Below are positions 6,258-46,905 of a DNA stretch of 52,514 nt, piece by piece. The stretch is from assembly GCA_030066755.1 (NCBI GenBank), contig JASJAX010000009.1, positions 1 through 52,514 of the forward strand, written 5' to 3'. Source of the stretch: Acidimicrobiia bacterium. Its GTDB lineage: Bacteria > Actinomycetota > Acidimicrobiia > Spongiisociales > UBA5794. The translations under genes and the position numbers were made by a program. Numbering within the stretch: position 1 is the first letter of the stretch; every line of letters starts with the position of its first letter. Under the pieces are notes generated by a model. It had not been told where the DNA came from. It did not search any database and worked only from the letters and a program-made list of their open reading frames with translations.

Positions 6258-6340
6258 TCTCAGGTCTCAGGTCACAGGTCACAGGCCTTCACCTGCGTGC
6301 TCTGACGTGCGACTTGAGACTTGCGACCTGAGACTCGACC
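6257..6340. repeat. Heptamer tandem repeat array (degenerate)
   Basis: The run reads gtctcag-gtctcag-gtcacag-gtcacag followed by gacttgagacttgcgacctgagac. Units are 7 nt with single-base changes and belong to the same intergenic family as the arrays at 17.3, 20.4 and 41.4 kb. Confidence 0.7.
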
Positions 6341-13061: not shown

Positions 13062-13343
13062 ATGAACCAGCCCGTACCCGCCCAGGCACCCGATCGCCCA
13101 CTGTCGGTGACGCTGGCATCGGTCGAGACCGGCACGCGGGTGCGGGTTCTCGATCTCGCCGTGGAGCGGAGCATCGCTCGACGTTTGGCCGACCTCGGCC
13201 TGACGATCGGTTCGCACGCCACCGTGGTGCAGAGCTCGTCGACTGCCGTGATCCTCGCAGCACGCGGAAGCCGCTTGGCGATTGGTCGGCCGCTCGCACG
13301 GGAGATCGTCGTCACCATCGAGCCGGATGGCGGGACTCCATGA
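13062..13343 (+). CDS. feoA: FeoA ferrous iron transport accessory protein
   Basis: The 246-residue track ORF begins far upstream inside the repeat region. The ATG at 13062 (MNQPVP) gives 93 residues. The SH3-like FeoA core is visible: LASVETGTRVRVLDL, RRLADLGLTIGS, and the closing ARGSRLAIGRPLAREIVV. FeoA is a cytosolic partner of the FeoB iron permease. Its stop overlaps the feoB1 start, so it leads the feo operon. The probable iron operator sits directly upstream. Confidence 0.88.
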   Translation: MNQPVPAQAPDRPLSVTLASVETGTRVRVLDLAVERSIARRLADLGLTIGSHATVVQSSSTAVILAARGSRLAIGRPLAREIVVTIEPDGGTP

Positions 13344-13849
13344 ACCCGCCGATTTCGATGGCGCTCGCCGGAAACCCCAACAGCGGGAAGACCACACTGT
13401 TCAATGTGATCACCGGCTCGCGACATCACGTCGGGAACTGGCCGGGCAAGACCGTCGAACGTCGGTCGGGAACCGTGCGGCACGGGACCCACGACATCGA
13501 GATCGTCGACCTACCCGGCGCCTACAGTCTGGCCGCCACCTCTCCGGAGGAGGTTCTGGCCCGCGACTACCTCATCGACGAACGCCCTGATGTCGTGGTC
13601 ATCGTGGTCGACGCCTCCCACCTCGAACGCAACCTCTTCCTGGCGACCCAGATTCTCGAGTTCGGTACGCCGGCCGTGCTCGCTCTCAACATGACCGACG
13701 TCGCTGCAGCCGCCGGTATCGAGCTCGACCTCGCCACACTCGCCGAACGGCTCGGAGTCCCGGTTGTGCCGCTCGCCGCGAGCAAACGAGTCGGCGTCGA
13801 GGCGCTGCTCGATGCCGTCATCGAGGTCGGAACGAGGACCGCAGCGTGA
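13340..13849 (+). CDS. feoB: FeoB GTPase domain as a separate protein
   Basis: This 169-residue ORF holds only the N-terminal G domain of FeoB. G1 is GNPNSGKTTLFN, G2 is in VGNWPGKTVE, G3 is DLPGAYSL, G4 is NMTD and G5 is in AASKRVG. Complete FeoB proteins have about 650-770 residues; this ORF ends where the helical guanine-dissociation-inhibitor domain should begin. The next ORF continues there, with a 4-nt overlap (GTGA). It is either a true split gene or one gene broken by a single-base frameshift. It powers and regulates Fe(II) import. Confidence 0.85.
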   Translation: MNPPISMALAGNPNSGKTTLFNVITGSRHHVGNWPGKTVERRSGTVRHGTHDIEIVDLPGAYSLAATSPEEVLARDYLIDERPDVVVIVVDASHLERNLFLATQILEFGTPAVLALNMTDVAAAAGIELDLATLAERLGVPVVPLAASKRVGVEALLDAVIEVGTRTAA

Positions 13850-15555
13850 GCGACGCCCTCCATGTCGAGTATGCAGCGGAGATCGAAGCCGCCGTCGCCA
13901 CGATCGAGGTCGCCATTGCAGCCAGTCCGGCGGTCGCCAACGAATTCCCGTCACGTTGGCTCGCGCTCGAACTCCTCGAGAACGGCGACGACCTGCGACG
14001 CAGGATCACCGCCCTCGAAGGTGGCCAATCGGTGATTGACGCTGCGGAGGTCGCAATGGCGGATCTCCGGACCCACCACGGCGACCAGGCATCGATCGCC
14101 GTCGCCGGCGGTCGGTATGACTGGGTGCAGGAAGTCGCCATCGAGATCACCCGCGCCGGCCGCAGCGATGCACCGACGAGGTCAGACCGGATCGATCGTG
14201 TCCTGACCCATCCCTTCGCCGGAGTACCGGTATTCATGTTCGCCATGTGGGCGGTCTTCAAGCTGACCGCCGACGTCGCCGCGGTGTTCCTCGACTGGAT
14301 CGACTCCGTGGTCAACGGGCCGGTGGCGCGATGGGTGGCATCGGCGATCGGAGCGATGGGTCTGGGCGACACGTGGTTCGAGGACCTGATGGTCGACGGT
14401 GTTGTTGCCGGCGTTGGCGGGATTCTCGTGTTCCTCCCCGTGTTGATCGCCCTCTACATGGCACTCGCCGTCCTGGAGGACAGCGGCTACATGGCCCGCG
14501 CCGCGCTCGTCATGGACCGGCTGATGCGACGCCTGGGTCTGCCCGCCAAGAGCTTCCTCCCGATGCTCGTCGGCTTCGGTTGCACCGTTCCGGCGATTTA
14601 CGCCACCAGGACCCTCGAACGTCGCCGCGACCGGGTCCTCACCGGCCTGCTCGTCCCGTTCATGAGCTGCGGCGCCCGCCTCCCCGTGTATGTGTTGATG
14701 GCGGCGGCGTTCTTCCCGAACCGACGCGGCACCGTGGTGTTCGGCATGTACCTCCTGGGTGTTGTCGTTGCCTTGATCATCGGCTTCGTGGCGAGCAAAA
14801 CGGTGATGAGCACTTCGGCCGCTCCCCCACTGATGCTCGAACTGCCGTCGTATCGTCGACCGACGCTGCGCGCCGTGTGGTTCCACACTTGGAAACGCAC
14901 CTCGTCGTTCGTCAAAGATGCCGGAACCATCATCCTCGCCACGAGCATCGTGCTGTGGGTCTTGATGGCGATCCCGATCGGCGGCGGATCGTTCGCCGAT
15001 ACCGCCATCGAAGACAGCGCGTTCGGCCGTACGGCCCAAGTCGCCGCACCGGTCTTCGAGCCCGCGGGCTTCGGTTCGTGGGAAGCGACGGGAGCGCTGG
15101 CGACCGGATTCGTCGCCAAGGAGGTCGTGGTCACCTCGATGGCGCAGATCTACGGCACCGACCGAGCCATCGAGGACCTGACGGATCCCTCGTTCGCCGA
15201 CGACCTCGCCGAAGTTGGGAGCGGCTTCGTGGACGCGTTGCGCGACACGGCGCTCGCGGTACCCGGGATCATCGGCATCGACCTCGTGGACGACGACGCC
15301 GAGGCGGCATCTGCCGGCCTGATCGCCGCCGTCACCAGCGGCTTCGACGCTGCGAGTGGCGGGCATGGGGCCCTGGCGGCCCTGGCGTTCTGCGTCTTCG
15401 TCCTCCTCTACACGCCGTGCGTCGCCGCCGTCGCGGCGGCACGTCGTGAGCTCGGATCACGATGGATGTGGACCAGCATCATCGGCCAGACCGCCCTGGC
15501 TTGGTCGATGGCGGTGGTGACCTTCCAGATAGGCAAACTCCTGTCGCTGGGCTAG
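13846..15555 (+). CDS. feoB: FeoB helical and membrane domains (permease half)
   Basis: The 569 residues start at a GTG overlapping the end of the GTPase ORF. The first 130 residues are the FeoB helical domain (HVEYAAEIEAAV, SRWLALELLE). The gate-type membrane core follows: GGILVFLPVLIALYMAL, GFGCTVPAIYATRTLE, LLVPFMSCGARLPVY and later GFVAKEVVVTSMAQ. The conserved Cys residues of the two gate motifs are intact. With the separate G domain the sum is 738 residues, a full FeoB. It sits in the inner membrane as the Fe(II) channel. Confidence 0.88.
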   Translation: MSDALHVEYAAEIEAAVATIEVAIAASPAVANEFPSRWLALELLENGDDLRRRITALEGGQSVIDAAEVAMADLRTHHGDQASIAVAGGRYDWVQEVAIEITRAGRSDAPTRSDRIDRVLTHPFAGVPVFMFAMWAVFKLTADVAAVFLDWIDSVVNGPVARWVASAIGAMGLGDTWFEDLMVDGVVAGVGGILVFLPVLIALYMALAVLEDSGYMARAALVMDRLMRRLGLPAKSFLPMLVGFGCTVPAIYATRTLERRRDRVLTGLLVPFMSCGARLPVYVLMAAAFFPNRRGTVVFGMYLLGVVVALIIGFVASKTVMSTSAAPPLMLELPSYRRPTLRAVWFHTWKRTSSFVKDAGTIILATSIVLWVLMAIPIGGGSFADTAIEDSAFGRTAQVAAPVFEPAGFGSWEATGALATGFVAKEVVVTSMAQIYGTDRAIEDLTDPSFADDLAEVGSGFVDALRDTALAVPGIIGIDLVDDDAEAASAGLIAAVTSGFDAASGGHGALAALAFCVFVLLYTPCVAAVAAARRELGSRWMWTSIIGQTALAWSMAVVTFQIGKLLSLG

Positions 15556-16901: not shown

Positions 16902-17282
16902 ATGAGTCTTCACTTCCTCGCTGGCTACGTGCTCGGTGAGCACGGCCGTCAGTCGGCCCGCCTGGCCGCAGCGGCTGGGGCTGCAGCCGGGTCGGGCGCC
17001 CAACGCGACGACATCTATGAACTCCACGATCGGGTCGATCGCCTGACCCTCGTCGTGGCGGCCATGTGGTCGCTACTCCAAGAGCAGGGACTCGATGAGC
17101 AAGCCCTCGCCGACCGCATCCGCGAGATGGACGAGGCCGACGGTTCCGCCGACGGCAAGATGACCCAGCAGGCTACGGACTGCTCGAGCTGCGGGGCAAA
17201 GATCGGCGCCGGCCTCGACCGCTGCCAGTTCTGCGGGGCCGCCGCAACCGACGGCACCGCCGACCCGTTTGCCAGGGTGTAG
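16902..17282 (+). CDS. Small protein with C-terminal zinc ribbon
   Basis: This 126-residue protein has an N-terminal Gly/Ala-rich helix (FLAGYVLGEHGRQSARLAAAAG), a central amphipathic helix pair and a C-terminal zinc ribbon with two CxxC knuckles (CSSCGAKIG and CQFCGAA). I do not recognise a named family. It is on the same strand 41 nt after the small membrane protein gene and may be co-transcribed. A heptamer array starts right after its stop codon. Confidence 0.6.
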   Translation: MSLHFLAGYVLGEHGRQSARLAAAAGAAAGSGAQRDDIYELHDRVDRLTLVVAAMWSLLQEQGLDEQALADRIREMDEADGSADGKMTQQATDCSSCGAKIGAGLDRCQFCGAAATDGTADPFARV

Positions 17283-17414
17283 TCACAAGTCACAAGTCTC
17301 AAGTCGCAAGTCCAGACCTGAGACACAATGACTTGAGACTTGAGGCACTCTGACCTGAGACTTGAGACCTGAGACCTGAGACCTGAGACCTGAGACCTGA
17401 GACCTGAGACTCTG
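17283..17414 (+). repeat. Heptamer tandem repeat array, GAGACCT type
   Basis: About 130 nt of 7-nt units, first caagtca/caagtct variants, then a clean run of seven gagacct units (17364-17410). It fills the gap between two convergent genes. The unit contains TGA, and because 7 is not a multiple of 3 the array stops all three plus-strand frames. Confidence 0.8.
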
Positions 17415-17441: not shown

Positions 17442-17873
17442 CTAGATCTGGGCCCCATCCGGTCCGAGGGTGCCGTCGCGACCGGCGTTGCGTAGATGGG
17501 TGACCCAGTCGCCGCTCGACACCATCGTTTCGGGGTCGAGCGGGCGGTGGTGCCGGTATACCCAAGCCGTACCTGCCGGCGTCACGAGATCGAGCTCCTC
17601 ACGAAGGTAGAGCGACGCATCGGAGTCTGCCGGATCGAAGCCTTCGAACGGATCCAGGACGTCTGCAAGGCGATCGTCCGTCACCTCGTAGAGGTCCCCA
17701 ACGACGACCCCTGGCCCTTCGGTCAACGCCGGGTACGCACCGAGATCGTGCAAGGTCCCCCGGACTCGAGCCGACCCGAGGTGGCGAACGAGCGATGCAA
17801 TCCCGATGCGACGTTGAGTGTCGAACGGGGGGCGCAACGAGCCGTAGAAGAAGATGCGATCACCAACCTGCAC
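17442..17873 (-). CDS. Gamma-glutamylcyclotransferase-like protein
   Basis: The 143-residue protein opens with FFYGSLR, the substrate-binding loop of the GGCT fold, and carries the probable catalytic Glu in VLDPFEGFDP, followed by YLREELDLVT and AWVYRH. The size matches small bacterial YtfP/GGCT-like proteins, which act on gamma-glutamyl amines; the exact substrate is unknown. The start at 17873 overlaps no other real gene. It diverges from the molybdoenzyme gene with 65 nt between starts. Confidence 0.8.
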   Translation of the reverse strand: MQVGDRIFFYGSLRPPFDTQRRIGIASLVRHLGSARVRGTLHDLGAYPALTEGPGVVVGDLYEVTDDRLADVLDPFEGFDPADSDASLYLREELDLVTPAGTAWVYRHHRPLDPETMVSSGDWVTHLRNAGRDGTLGPDGAQI

Positions 17874-17938
17874 CGCGTCAACCTACCCGGCAGGCTGCAA
17901 ACTCGATCGGTAGCCTCCGCACCGTCGAAGGGAGCGGC

Positions 17939-20161
17939 GTGACCGAGACGACCCGAACCGAATACCGCACCTGCCCGCTGTGCGAAGCCACCTGTGGTCT
18001 CGAGATCACGCTGCGAGACGGCGCGGTGACTCGAATCCGCGGCGACCGCGACGACGTGTTCAGCCGCGGCTTCATCTGCCCGAAAGGTTCCACACTGAAG
18101 CAGCTCGAGGCCGACCCGAATCGGTTGCGGACGCCACTGGTCCGCCGCAACGGCAAACACGTACCCGCAACCTGGGACGAGGCGTTCGCCGAGATCGAGA
18201 GGCGATTGCGCTCGATCATCGATACGCACGGACCCGACGCGGTTGCGGTCTATCTGGGCAATCCGAACGTCCACTCGATGTCCGGTCCGCTCTACAACCG
18301 GGTGTTCCTCCGGGCGCTGCGGACCAAGAACATCTACAGCGCCAGCACCGTCGACCAGATGCCGAAGCACGTCAGCGCCGGGCTCATGTTCGGCCATCCC
18401 GACCTGATCCCGGTCCCCGATCTCGACCGCACGGACTATCTCCTGATGCTCGGCGCCAACCCGTACGAGTCGAACGGCAGCCTCGCCACGGCTCCGGATT
18501 GGCCGGGCCGCATGGAAGCGATCATGGAGCGTGGCGGGCGGGTCGTCGTCGTCGACCCCCGCCGCACGAGAACGGCCGCCGCCGCATCGGAGCACCTGTT
18601 CATCCGACCCGGGACCGATGCATTGCTCCTGTTCGCCATGGTCAATGTGCTCTTCGCCGACGGTCGTGTCGATCCCGGAAACCTTGCGGATCTCGTCGAC
18701 GGTCTCGACAGGCTGCGCAGCGCGGCGGCCGACTTCTCGCCGGAGGCCGTCGCCGATACGGTCGGCATCGAAGCAGCGACCATCCGCCGCCTTGCTCACG
18801 AACTCGCCAACGCTGAGACCGCCGTCGTCTATGGCCGGATCGGGACGCACACCGCCGAGTTCGGCACCATCGCGAGCTGGCTGGTGGACGCGCTCAACCT
18901 CATGACCGGCAACCTCGATTGTCCGGGCGGGGCGATGTTCCCCCTCGCCGCAACCGAACAGCCGAGGAGCCGGCGTGGCTTCCAACTGGGCCGCTTCACG
19001 AGCCGGGTGCACGGCCTTCCGGAGGTGCGTGGCGAACTGCCCATTGCGACCCTGGCCGACGAGATCATGACCCCCGGCGACGGCCGGGTTCGTGCGCTGG
19101 TCACGATTGCGGGCAATCCGGTGCTGTCGACGCCGCACAGCGATCGTCTCGACGCCGCGCTCGCCGACCTCGACTTCATGGTCAGCCTCGACCTCTATCT
19201 GAACGAAACCAGCCGTCACGCCGATGTGATCCTCCCCGGCACTCCCCCGCTGCAGCGGCCGCACTACGACTTCGCCTTCACCCAGCTATCCATCCGCAAT
19301 GTCGCCAACTTCTCGCCGGCGATCCTCCCTGCCGAGTACGACAACCCAGAGGAGTGGCAAGTCCTCCTCCGGCTGGCGGCCGTCTGTGCCGGACAAGGCG
19401 CAGACGCCGATCTCAACACCTTCGACGACATGGTGTTCGGAACCGTGATCGCTCGTTCAATCGGGAGTCCGGACTCGAGAATCCACGGACGTTCCCCGGA
19501 GGACATCCTGAACGAGTCGACCGGCGAACGCGGCCCGATCCGACTGCTCGAGTTCTTCGTCCGCACCGGCCCCTACGGCGATGCCTATGGGCAGGACCCG
19601 GACGGCCTCACGCTCGCTGCTCTGCGGTCGGCCCCGCACGGCATCGACCTCGGACCACTCCAGCCCCGCCTCCCCGAGGCGCTGGCGACACCCGACGGGC
19701 GGATCGACCTGGCTCCGGCGGAGATCCTGGCTGATGTTCCCCGGCTTGCAGAACGTGCGTCGCAGCACACGAACGGAACGATGACCCTCGTCGGGCGCCG
19801 CGACCTCCGGTCGAACAACTCCTGGATGCACAACCTCGAAGTGCTCATCAAGGGCAAGGAGCGGTGCACGCTGCAGATCCACCCCAGCGACGCGGATCGA
19901 TTCGGGATCGAGTCGGGTGGCATCGCCAAGATCGTCTCCGCCGCCGGCTCCGTGGCTGCCCCGGTCGACATCACGGAGTCGATCATGCCCGGGGTCGTGA
20001 GCCTCCCGCACGGATGGGGCCACGACCTCTCTGGAACTCGCCTCGACGTTGCGGCCACCCGGCCCGGCGTCAACAGCAACAAGCTGGCTCCCGGTGCCAC
20101 CGACCCGCTCTCCGGCAACGCCGTCCTCAACGGCATCCCAGTCGAGGTCATGCCGGGCTGA
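17939..20161 (+). CDS. Molybdopterin oxidoreductase (DMSO reductase family)
   Basis: The track ORF starts inside the opposite gene. The GTG at 17939 (VTETTRTEYRTC), after GGGAG, gives 740 residues. The N-terminus has a [4Fe-4S] motif, CPLCEATCGL...FICPKG. Bis-MGD-binding segments follow: LGNPNVHS, LMLGANPYESNGS, VVVDPRRTRTA and FIRPGTDALLLF. The C-terminal cap (about 610-740) includes NNSWMHN and VSLPHGWGHD. No Sec or Cys is present at the usual Mo-ligand site; by ungapped comparison with NapA the residue is Asp (TVDQMP). It has no Tat signal and so should be cytosolic. The electron donor/acceptor and substrate are unknown. Confidence 0.85.
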   Translation: MTETTRTEYRTCPLCEATCGLEITLRDGAVTRIRGDRDDVFSRGFICPKGSTLKQLEADPNRLRTPLVRRNGKHVPATWDEAFAEIERRLRSIIDTHGPDAVAVYLGNPNVHSMSGPLYNRVFLRALRTKNIYSASTVDQMPKHVSAGLMFGHPDLIPVPDLDRTDYLLMLGANPYESNGSLATAPDWPGRMEAIMERGGRVVVVDPRRTRTAAAASEHLFIRPGTDALLLFAMVNVLFADGRVDPGNLADLVDGLDRLRSAAADFSPEAVADTVGIEAATIRRLAHELANAETAVVYGRIGTHTAEFGTIASWLVDALNLMTGNLDCPGGAMFPLAATEQPRSRRGFQLGRFTSRVHGLPEVRGELPIATLADEIMTPGDGRVRALVTIAGNPVLSTPHSDRLDAALADLDFMVSLDLYLNETSRHADVILPGTPPLQRPHYDFAFTQLSIRNVANFSPAILPAEYDNPEEWQVLLRLAAVCAGQGADADLNTFDDMVFGTVIARSIGSPDSRIHGRSPEDILNESTGERGPIRLLEFFVRTGPYGDAYGQDPDGLTLAALRSAPHGIDLGPLQPRLPEALATPDGRIDLAPAEILADVPRLAERASQHTNGTMTLVGRRDLRSNNSWMHNLEVLIKGKERCTLQIHPSDADRFGIESGGIAKIVSAAGSVAAPVDITESIMPGVVSLPHGWGHDLSGTRLDVAATRPGVNSNKLAPGATDPLSGNAVLNGIPVEVMPG

Positions 20162-20220: not shown

Positions 20221-20288
20221 GGCAGTCGTCAGTCGTCAGTCACGAGCCACGAGCCACGAGCCACGAGCCACGAGCCACGAGCCACGAG
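20221..20288 (+). repeat. Heptamer arrays GTCGTCA and GAGCCAC
   Basis: Two or three gtcgtca-type units are followed by seven exact units of acgagcc/gagccac. The unit length is 7 nt as in the other arrays, but the sequence differs. Confidence 0.8.
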
Positions 20289-20407: not shown

Positions 20408-20512
20408 GGGCTCGACCTGAGACCTGAGACCTGAGACCTGAGACCTGAGACCTGAGACTTGGGACCTGAGACCTGCGACTTGGGACTTGGGACTTGGGAC
20501 TCGGCCTCAACT
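20408..20512 (+). repeat. Heptamer tandem repeat array, GAGACCT/GGGACTT
   Basis: Six gagacct units pass into gggacct, gcgactt and three gggactt units. It ends 20 nt before the -10 box of the DUF885 gene. Confidence 0.8.
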
Positions 20513-23654: not shown

Positions 23655-23712
23655 GGTCGAGGTCCCAGGTCCCAGGTCCCAGGTCCCAGGTCTCAAGTTC
23701 GAGGTTCGAGGG
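23654..23712 (-). repeat. Heptamer tandem repeat array, AGGTCCC type
   Basis: Five tcccagg units and related ctcaagt/tcgaggt units start right at the stop codon of the Ogt-Ada gene. The orientation is reversed compared with the arrays at 17.3 and 20.4 kb. Confidence 0.75.
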
Positions 23713-26792: not shown

Positions 26793-27196
26793 TCCGAGGG
26801 CGTTCCCGGTCCATCGCTGCGCTGGCGATCGCGGCATTCGTCGGGCTCGGTGCGTGCGGCGGCGACACCGTCGTCTTCGAGCTGACGGACGCCGTCGAGT
26901 CACAGGAGCTCCTGACCGAGCCCCCGGCCGGTCTCGTCGTCCTGGATATCCGCACACCGGACGAGTTCGCCGAAGGCCACATCGGTGGATCGAGCAACCT
27001 CGACTTCTACGAGCCGGATTTCGCCGCCTCGCTGGATGCGCTCGACAAGGACCTGCCGTACTTCGTGTATTGCCGGTCCGGGAACCGGTCATCTCAGGCC
27101 CTCGAGACGATGAAGGATCTCGGGTTCACCGAGGTGTACGAACTCGACGGCGGCATCATCACGTGGGCAGAGGCAGGGCTACCGATCGACCAGTAG
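26789..27196 (+). CDS. Rhodanese-domain lipoprotein
   Basis: The 135-residue protein begins with a lipoprotein signal (RGRSRSIAALAIAAFVG, lipobox GLGAC with Cys near residue 23), so it is anchored outside the membrane. The rhodanese domain has VLDIRTPDEFAEGHIGGS and the active loop YCRSGNRSSQA with an intact Cys. It forms a cytosol/outside pair with the preceding rhodanese. The last codons, CAG TAG, are the first unit of a CAGTAGC heptamer array, so the repeat supplies the stop codon. Confidence 0.85.
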   Translation: MIRGRSRSIAALAIAAFVGLGACGGDTVVFELTDAVESQELLTEPPAGLVVLDIRTPDEFAEGHIGGSSNLDFYEPDFAASLDALDKDLPYFVYCRSGNRSSQALETMKDLGFTEVYELDGGIITWAEAGLPIDQ

Positions 27197-27236
27197 CCAG
27201 TAGCCAGTAGCCAGTAGCCAGTAGCCAGTAGCCAGA
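27191..27236 (+). repeat. Heptamer tandem repeat array, CAGTAGC
   Basis: Six perfect cagtagc units plus a partial one. The TAG in the first unit is the stop codon of the rhodanese lipoprotein gene. Confidence 0.85.
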
Positions 27237-27247
27237 CCGTACTCGGC

Positions 27248-27308
27248 TGAGACCTGAGACCTGAGACCTGGGACCTGCGACTTGCGACTTGAGACTTGGG
27301 ACTTGTGA
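27248..27308 (+). repeat. Heptamer tandem repeat array, GAGACCT/GCGACTT
   Basis: Units gagacct, gagacct, gggacct, gcgactt, gcgactt, gagactt and gggactt. It is directly after the CAGTAGC array. Confidence 0.8.
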
Positions 27309-27339
27309 CACCCAGGGGACGGTGCAGCTGTCGACCGGG

Positions 27340-37379: not shown

Positions 37380-37399
37380 GCGGCCGCGCGGCGGCCGCG

Positions 37400-37475
37400 G
37401 TCTCAAGTCCCAGGTCCCACGTCCCAGGTCTCAGGTCTCAGGTCCCAGGTCTCAAGTCCGAGGTCTCGGGTCCTC
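37400..37475 (-). repeat. Heptamer tandem repeat array, AGGTCTC/AGGTCCC
   Basis: About ten 7-nt units (caagtcc, caggtcc, cacgtcc, caggtct and so on) fill the whole gap between the convergent tnaA and hrpA genes. The orientation is reversed, so TGA triplets fall on the minus strand. Confidence 0.8.
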
Positions 37476-41374: not shown

Positions 41375-41383
41375 CGGGAGGTA

Positions 41384-41526
41384 CTTGGAACTTGGAACTT
41401 GGAACTTGGAACTTGGAACTTGGAACTTGGAACTTGGAACTTGGAACCCGGGACCTGGGACCTGGGACCTGAGACCTGAGACCTGAGACCTGCGACCTGC
41501 GACCCGCGGCCTGCGACCTGAGACTG
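41384..41526 (+). repeat. Heptamer tandem repeat array, ACTTGGA then GAGACCT
   Basis: The longest array: eight acttgga units, then ggacctg, gagacct and gcgacct units, about 140 nt. It fills the gap between the divergent hrpA and LLM genes and so lies upstream of both starts. Confidence 0.85.
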
Positions 41527-42831: not shown

Positions 42832-42926
42832 GAAGTCTCAAGTCTCAGGTCTCAAGTCTCAAGCCCGAAGTCCGCGGGCTCAGGCCCCAAGTCCCAGGTG
42901 TCACGTCTCCGGTCTCAGGTTCAGGG
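42832..42926 (-). repeat. Heptamer tandem repeat array, AAGTCTC/AGGTCTC
   Basis: Around twelve 7-nt units (aagtctc, aggtctc, aagcccg, aagtccc and others) fill the gap between convergent genes. Confidence 0.75.
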
Positions 42927-46653: not shown

Positions 46654-46905
46654 AGCCAGTAGCCAGTAGCCAGATGAAAGCCGACCGCGGACGCACGCGC
46701 TCGAACCGTGACTCCGAGCTGGCGACTGGAAGCGAGCGCAGCGAGCGGACTGGCGACTGGCGACCCGGCGGCGAAGCCGCCGCACTGGCGACTGGAAGCG
46801 AGCGCAGCGAGCGTACTGGCGACTGGCGACTCGGCGGCGAAGCCGCCGCACCGGCTACCGGAAGTGAGCGCCAGCGAACGTACTGGCGACTGGCTACTTT
46901 CCGTG
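46654..46905. repeat. CAGTAGC heptamers and three 66-bp tandem repeats
   Basis: Three cagtagc units (46654-46676) are followed by three 66-bp copies starting at 46724, 46790 and 46856 (the last partial). Each copy has a GAAGCGAGCGCAGCGAGCG block, two ggcgact heptamers and a GGCGGC-gaa-GCCGCC hairpin. Because 66 is a multiple of 3, several long shadow ORFs cross the array; none looks genuine. Confidence 0.8.

Follow-up and report, generated by a model that had tools for sequence, protein, structure and literature searches.

An invariant aspartate at the metal-ligand position of a widespread family of formate dehydrogenase-like molybdoenzymes

The 52,514-nucleotide stretch of Acidimicrobiia DNA analyzed here (the window) contains a gene whose product is probably a cytoplasmic, soluble oxidoreductase with molybdenum (or tungsten) held by bis-MGD and a single [4Fe-4S] cluster. 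The protein belongs to the DMSO-reductase (MopB) superfamily, in a large, unnamed clade on the formate dehydrogenase (FDH)/Nap side, in which an invariant aspartate, Asp139, replaces the thiolate or selenolate ligand of the metal. The extent of this Asp family over several phyla and its nearest sister group, which bears glutamate, go beyond what an earlier note on this DNA had described. The frame, strand and coordinates of the gene are all correct, and its features are as follows.

17930..17934, + strand, GGGAG, likely ribosome-binding site 5' of GTG17939 (from the sequence)
17939..20161, + strand, Asp-family MopB oxidoreductase gene, 740 aa, GTG start, TAA stop at 20159-20161
residues 11-55, Molybdop_Fe4S4 domain PF04879 (Pfam)
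17972..18079, + strand, [4Fe-4S] motif C12-x2-C15-x3-C19-x27-C47 (four Cys invariant in the family)
18083..18085, + strand, Lys49, between the Fe-S cluster and the pterin (Lys in 99% of the family)
18122..19246, + strand, residues 62-436, molybdopterin oxidoreductase domain PF00384 (Pfam)
18329..18382, + strand, residues 131-148, ligand loop NIYSASTVDQMPKHVSAG (the peptide quoted in the earlier note)
18353..18355, + strand, codon of Asp139, the residue aligned with the Cys/Sec ligand; the next residue is Gln140, where FDH has His
19784..20131, + strand, residues 616-731, Molydop_binding (molybdopterin dinucleotide binding) domain PF01568 (Pfam)

Gene, domains and fold

An alternative in-frame start, ATG17795, would add 48 residues. 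GTG17939 is the likelier start because this extension runs into a divergent gene at 17442-17873 that encodes a gamma-glutamyl-cyclotransferase-like protein (GGACT). Only 11 residues then precede the first cysteine (C12), which leaves no space for a signal peptide. The gene is solitary in the window rather than part of an operon with electron-transfer subunits, and none of its flanking genes there is an iron-sulfur (including beta subunit), cytochrome or chaperone gene. With neither space for a signal peptide nor a membrane partner gene, the soluble character proposed in the earlier note stands. No conserved neighbor gene was found across 80 genome contigs and 40 loci from two other groups. The neighbors that recur in some Acidimicrobiia (NrdR, class II ribonucleotide reductase and LexA) and in some Pseudomonadota (an ABC ATPase and PhzF) reflect lineage synteny.

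Many intergenic gaps of the window, including both flanks of the molybdoenzyme gene, are occupied by 7-base tandem repeats (AGACCTG, CACGAGC, CCAGTAG, ACTTGGA and others), at the sites listed below. A tandem array with a 66-base unit (2.7 copies, 92% match) lies at 46719-46894, and FeoB is apparently split into two adjoining genes, one for the GTPase domain (13340-13849) and one for the membrane part (13846-15555).

6304-6335, 17281-17410, 20241-20288, 20414-20501 and 23657-23705, 7-base repeat sites
27190-27309, 37399-37473, 41383-41524 and 42833-42863, further 7-base repeat sites

All three Pfam domains score above cut-off. The iron-sulfur motif is complete, as the earlier note had read it, with C12, C15, C19 and C47 present and PF04879 above its cut-off. 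Residue 49 is a lysine as in FDH and Nap, whereas NarG and DmsA have an arginine. An AlphaFold2 model made from a 100-row alignment (mean pLDDT 96.1, pTM 0.95) predicts the full NapA/FDH fold, and its best PDB matches, over the full length, are NapA 2v45, FDH-H and polysulfide reductase (fold match E 6.7e-41). NapA 2v45 is the best of these by E-value (TM 0.73) and shares the single [4Fe-4S] cluster and the loop spacing, but the protein differs from NapA in having Asp for Cys, no signal peptide and no nap partner genes, and the two are only 20% identical. Of the leading matches, the polysulfide reductase PsrA (2vpw), a Cys-ligated, exported part of a membrane complex, has the highest TM-score (0.78).

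A Moco-free, non-catalytic protein of the NuoG, ActB or QrcB kind is a very improbable reading. The MopB superfamily does have cofactor-less members (PMC10100899), and the QrcB model ranks third among the NCBIfam matches, but the protein has the full domain set over 740 residues with invariant cluster cysteines. Many residues in both pterin-binding domains are also invariant across phyla, and the several paralogs per genome resemble enzymes.

Asp139 and the metal-ligand position

A phmmer search of all PDB sequences returned formate dehydrogenases as its first matches (9t1s at 9e-45, 7bkb, 7qv7 and 1aa6), and the nearest solved sequences are FdhF/FdhA enzymes. In all five of the alignments that phmmer printed for solved formate dehydrogenases, the loop is free of gaps and D139 falls on the Cys/Sec ligand, including Sec140 of 1aa6. 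The same column holds C or U for E. coli FdhF, FdnG and NapA in a MAFFT alignment. The spacing within the loop agrees as well: the ligand of FDH-H lies eight residues past the N of NVDCCARVU, D139 lies eight past the N of NIYSASTVD, and the NapA loop NIDPNARHC is spaced identically. Single-sequence hhalign is inconsistent here and alone would not decide the ligand column, since it places D139 on NarG D223 (Asp222 without Met1) and on FdnG Sec196 but displaces the loop by a gap for FdhF, NapA, DmsA and BisC. The multi-family MAFFT alignment and phmmer were therefore used for this assignment, and both uphold, without gaps, the earlier placement of an aspartate on the molybdenum-ligand position. 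From these alignments we infer that the Asp139 carboxylate is a ligand of the metal.

The protein shares with FDHs (FDH-H 1aa6 and the F420- and NAD-linked enzymes) its domain order, one N-terminal [4Fe-4S] cluster, Lys49, the ligand-loop spacing and a cytoplasmic location. It differs from them in having Asp for Cys/Sec, Gln140 for His141 and, in the phmmer alignment with 1aa6, Ala at Arg333, and it belongs to a separate clade. Neither His141 nor Arg333 (in VRGQNN) is conserved in the Asp family, and by these residues the protein is not a formate dehydrogenase. Nor does it have the Cys ligand of the NapA/Nas nitrate reductases. It is exceedingly improbable that the protein is simply a formate dehydrogenase or assimilatory nitrate reductase of the usual kind in which the substitution is neutral. 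Its nearest solved relatives are formate dehydrogenases and TIGR01591 tops its NCBIfam matches, but that match scores just 218 bits where the cut-off is 666, the ligand, His141 and Arg333 are all substituted, and the clade is separate at 98/93. The sulfurtransferase that serves formate dehydrogenases, FdhD, was also not found in the source genome, which is about 92% complete. Catechol dehydroxylases are reported to be closest to acetylene hydratase (PMC7028382); they were rejected as functional relatives because the protein matches FDH far better than it matches acetylene hydratase.

Asp139 might instead occupy the ligand position without binding molybdenum, so that the metal would have no protein ligand and the aspartate would act in acid-base chemistry or substrate binding. 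A strictly invariant Asp beside the metal would also suit a catalytic base, and the superfamily tolerates loss of its protein ligand, as in arsenite oxidase (PMC10100899); iodate reductase offers a second precedent. We regard this arrangement as unlikely, however, given that NarG and its kin have a carboxylate at the same metal site (PMC10100899) and that hhalign equates D139 with NarG Asp222.

A different loop residue, with Thr/Ser137 the likeliest candidate, could be the ligand and create a Ser-type center like that of DMSO reductase. Of the 198 non-redundant sequences that were compared, 196 have Thr or Ser at position 137, and DmsA-type enzymes use Ser as their ligand (PMC10100899). The position lies two residues ahead of the ligand in the ungapped FDH and NapA alignment, though, and the other two sequences have Ala there. 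Thr is not known as a molybdenum ligand in the MopB superfamily, and we consider this choice of ligand quite improbable beside Asp139.

Family extent and ancestry

Relatives were gathered with a profile on whole genomes, with a pattern on genome contigs, and from plasmids. At 469 bits or more, the family profile yielded 261 ORF matches that represent 214 distinct homologous sequences, and the homologues are spread over Actinomycetota, Pseudomonadota, Deinococcus plasmids and a third phylum. Among the genomes sampled, strong matches occur in at least 62 of 397 from Actinomycetota and at least 23 of 299 from Pseudomonadota. The earlier note had proposed a family tree as a check on whether the aspartate is invariant; with the tree now made, Asp139 is found in all 198 non-redundant sequences that cover the position, down to about 28% identity, and its alignment on the ligand thus goes beyond chance. 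All profile matches of at least 469 bits carry Asp, and the best match that does not scores 433 bits. Gln140 is less strictly kept (177/198), and the motif around the aspartate varies freely (TVDQMPK, SLDQLPH, SQDVNNRF, TIDQPAK and SIDTPAK). In each of two Deltaproteobacteria MAGs the profile has 9 or 10 matches, which suggests expansion toward different substrates. Databases already list the family with generic labels like molybdopterin-dependent oxidoreductase; no characterized or described member was found in the open-licence literature or among solved structures.

Two trees were built, a quick one with 64 proteins and a careful one with 41; both are unrooted and sample the superfamily thinly, without AioA, ArrA or acetylene hydratase. 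The Asp family forms a single clade in both (98/93 in the careful tree). It clusters together with a Glu-bearing group among FDH, Nap and Nas, and NarG and the other type II enzymes lie opposite with DmsA. A common clade of the Asp family and type II is rejected (p-AU 5.6e-5), as is one that also includes the Glu group (p-AU 6.6e-4). Type II is represented in these trees by one sub-cut-off TIGR03479 sequence and by Pseudomonadota sequences, as no Actinomycetota sequence passed the TIGR03479 cut-off. Clade placement and the AU rejection thus agree with the earlier view of the protein as FDH/Nap-like and not NarG-like. The type II enzymes (NarG, PcrA, EbdA, SerA and DdhA) likewise have a carboxylate at the ligand site, but they occupy the other half of the tree, and some of their loops read x-G-D with a different spacing. 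The first cluster ligand is a Cys where NarG has His, and the protein is smaller and has no beta or gamma subunit genes.

The sister of the Asp family in the careful tree (100/100) is an unnamed Glu-motif MopB group, NALAQEKTGEFW, which has the same domain architecture but Glu instead of Asp in the ligand column. The source genome itself holds two members of this group, and all of its sequences that we have seen contain AQEKTGE. Glutamate is not among the molybdenum ligands reported in published surveys (PMC10100899, PMC7331816). A Cys-ligated group (AGSHCH/VGSQCH), represented by three sequences, branches beside the Asp and Glu clade, and the one member scanned falls below every NCBIfam cut-off. 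The natural reading is that the switch went from Cys to Asp, although this direction is unproven in unrooted trees. We propose tentatively, at somewhat less than even chances, that the Asp branch and its Glu (or Gln) sister together make up a superclade with carboxylate ligands, which lies on the FDH/Nap side and is independent of the NarG type.

Proposed chemistry and significance

The Asp139 carboxylate is predicted to bind molybdenum, and electrons would travel between this metal and a diffusible carrier (ferredoxin, for example) by way of the pterin, Lys49 and the [4Fe-4S] cluster. A diffusible carrier is proposed since no gene nearby encodes a partner subunit. The protein would be a stand-alone cytoplasmic enzyme that hydroxylates a small substrate, or carries out oxo-transfer with it, at an Asp-ligated center, chemistry that we favor over formate oxidation because the aspartate oxygen is a hard ligand. 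The earlier note had assigned no reaction, and this still holds; no member with known activity was found. Divergent members on Sphingomonad plasmids lie among cytochrome P450, flavoprotein and amidohydrolase genes, and a Mycobacterium branderi member lies among CoA-pathway genes. These neighborhoods, whose arrangement is not conserved, hint at a role in catabolism.

Published surveys place Asp ligands only on the NarG/SerA/EbdA/PcrA/haloarchaeal DmsA side of the superfamily (PMC10100899, PMC7331816; also PMC6650914). The switch of the metal ligand from Cys/Sec to Asp therefore seems to have occurred at least twice in nature, and an Asp lineage that arose separately in the FDH/Nap half would offer a natural experiment in the role of the protein ligand in molybdenum chemistry. 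The Asp family is common, yet no assigned reaction was found for it. With this finding, the identity of the ligand and the function can both be tested directly in ordinary hosts such as Streptomyces. If the carboxylate-ligated superclade is real, then Glu would be a new protein ligand of molybdenum in this superfamily, and carboxylate ligation would have a second origin, separate from that of the NarG type, that probably served new chemistry in aerobic bacteria.
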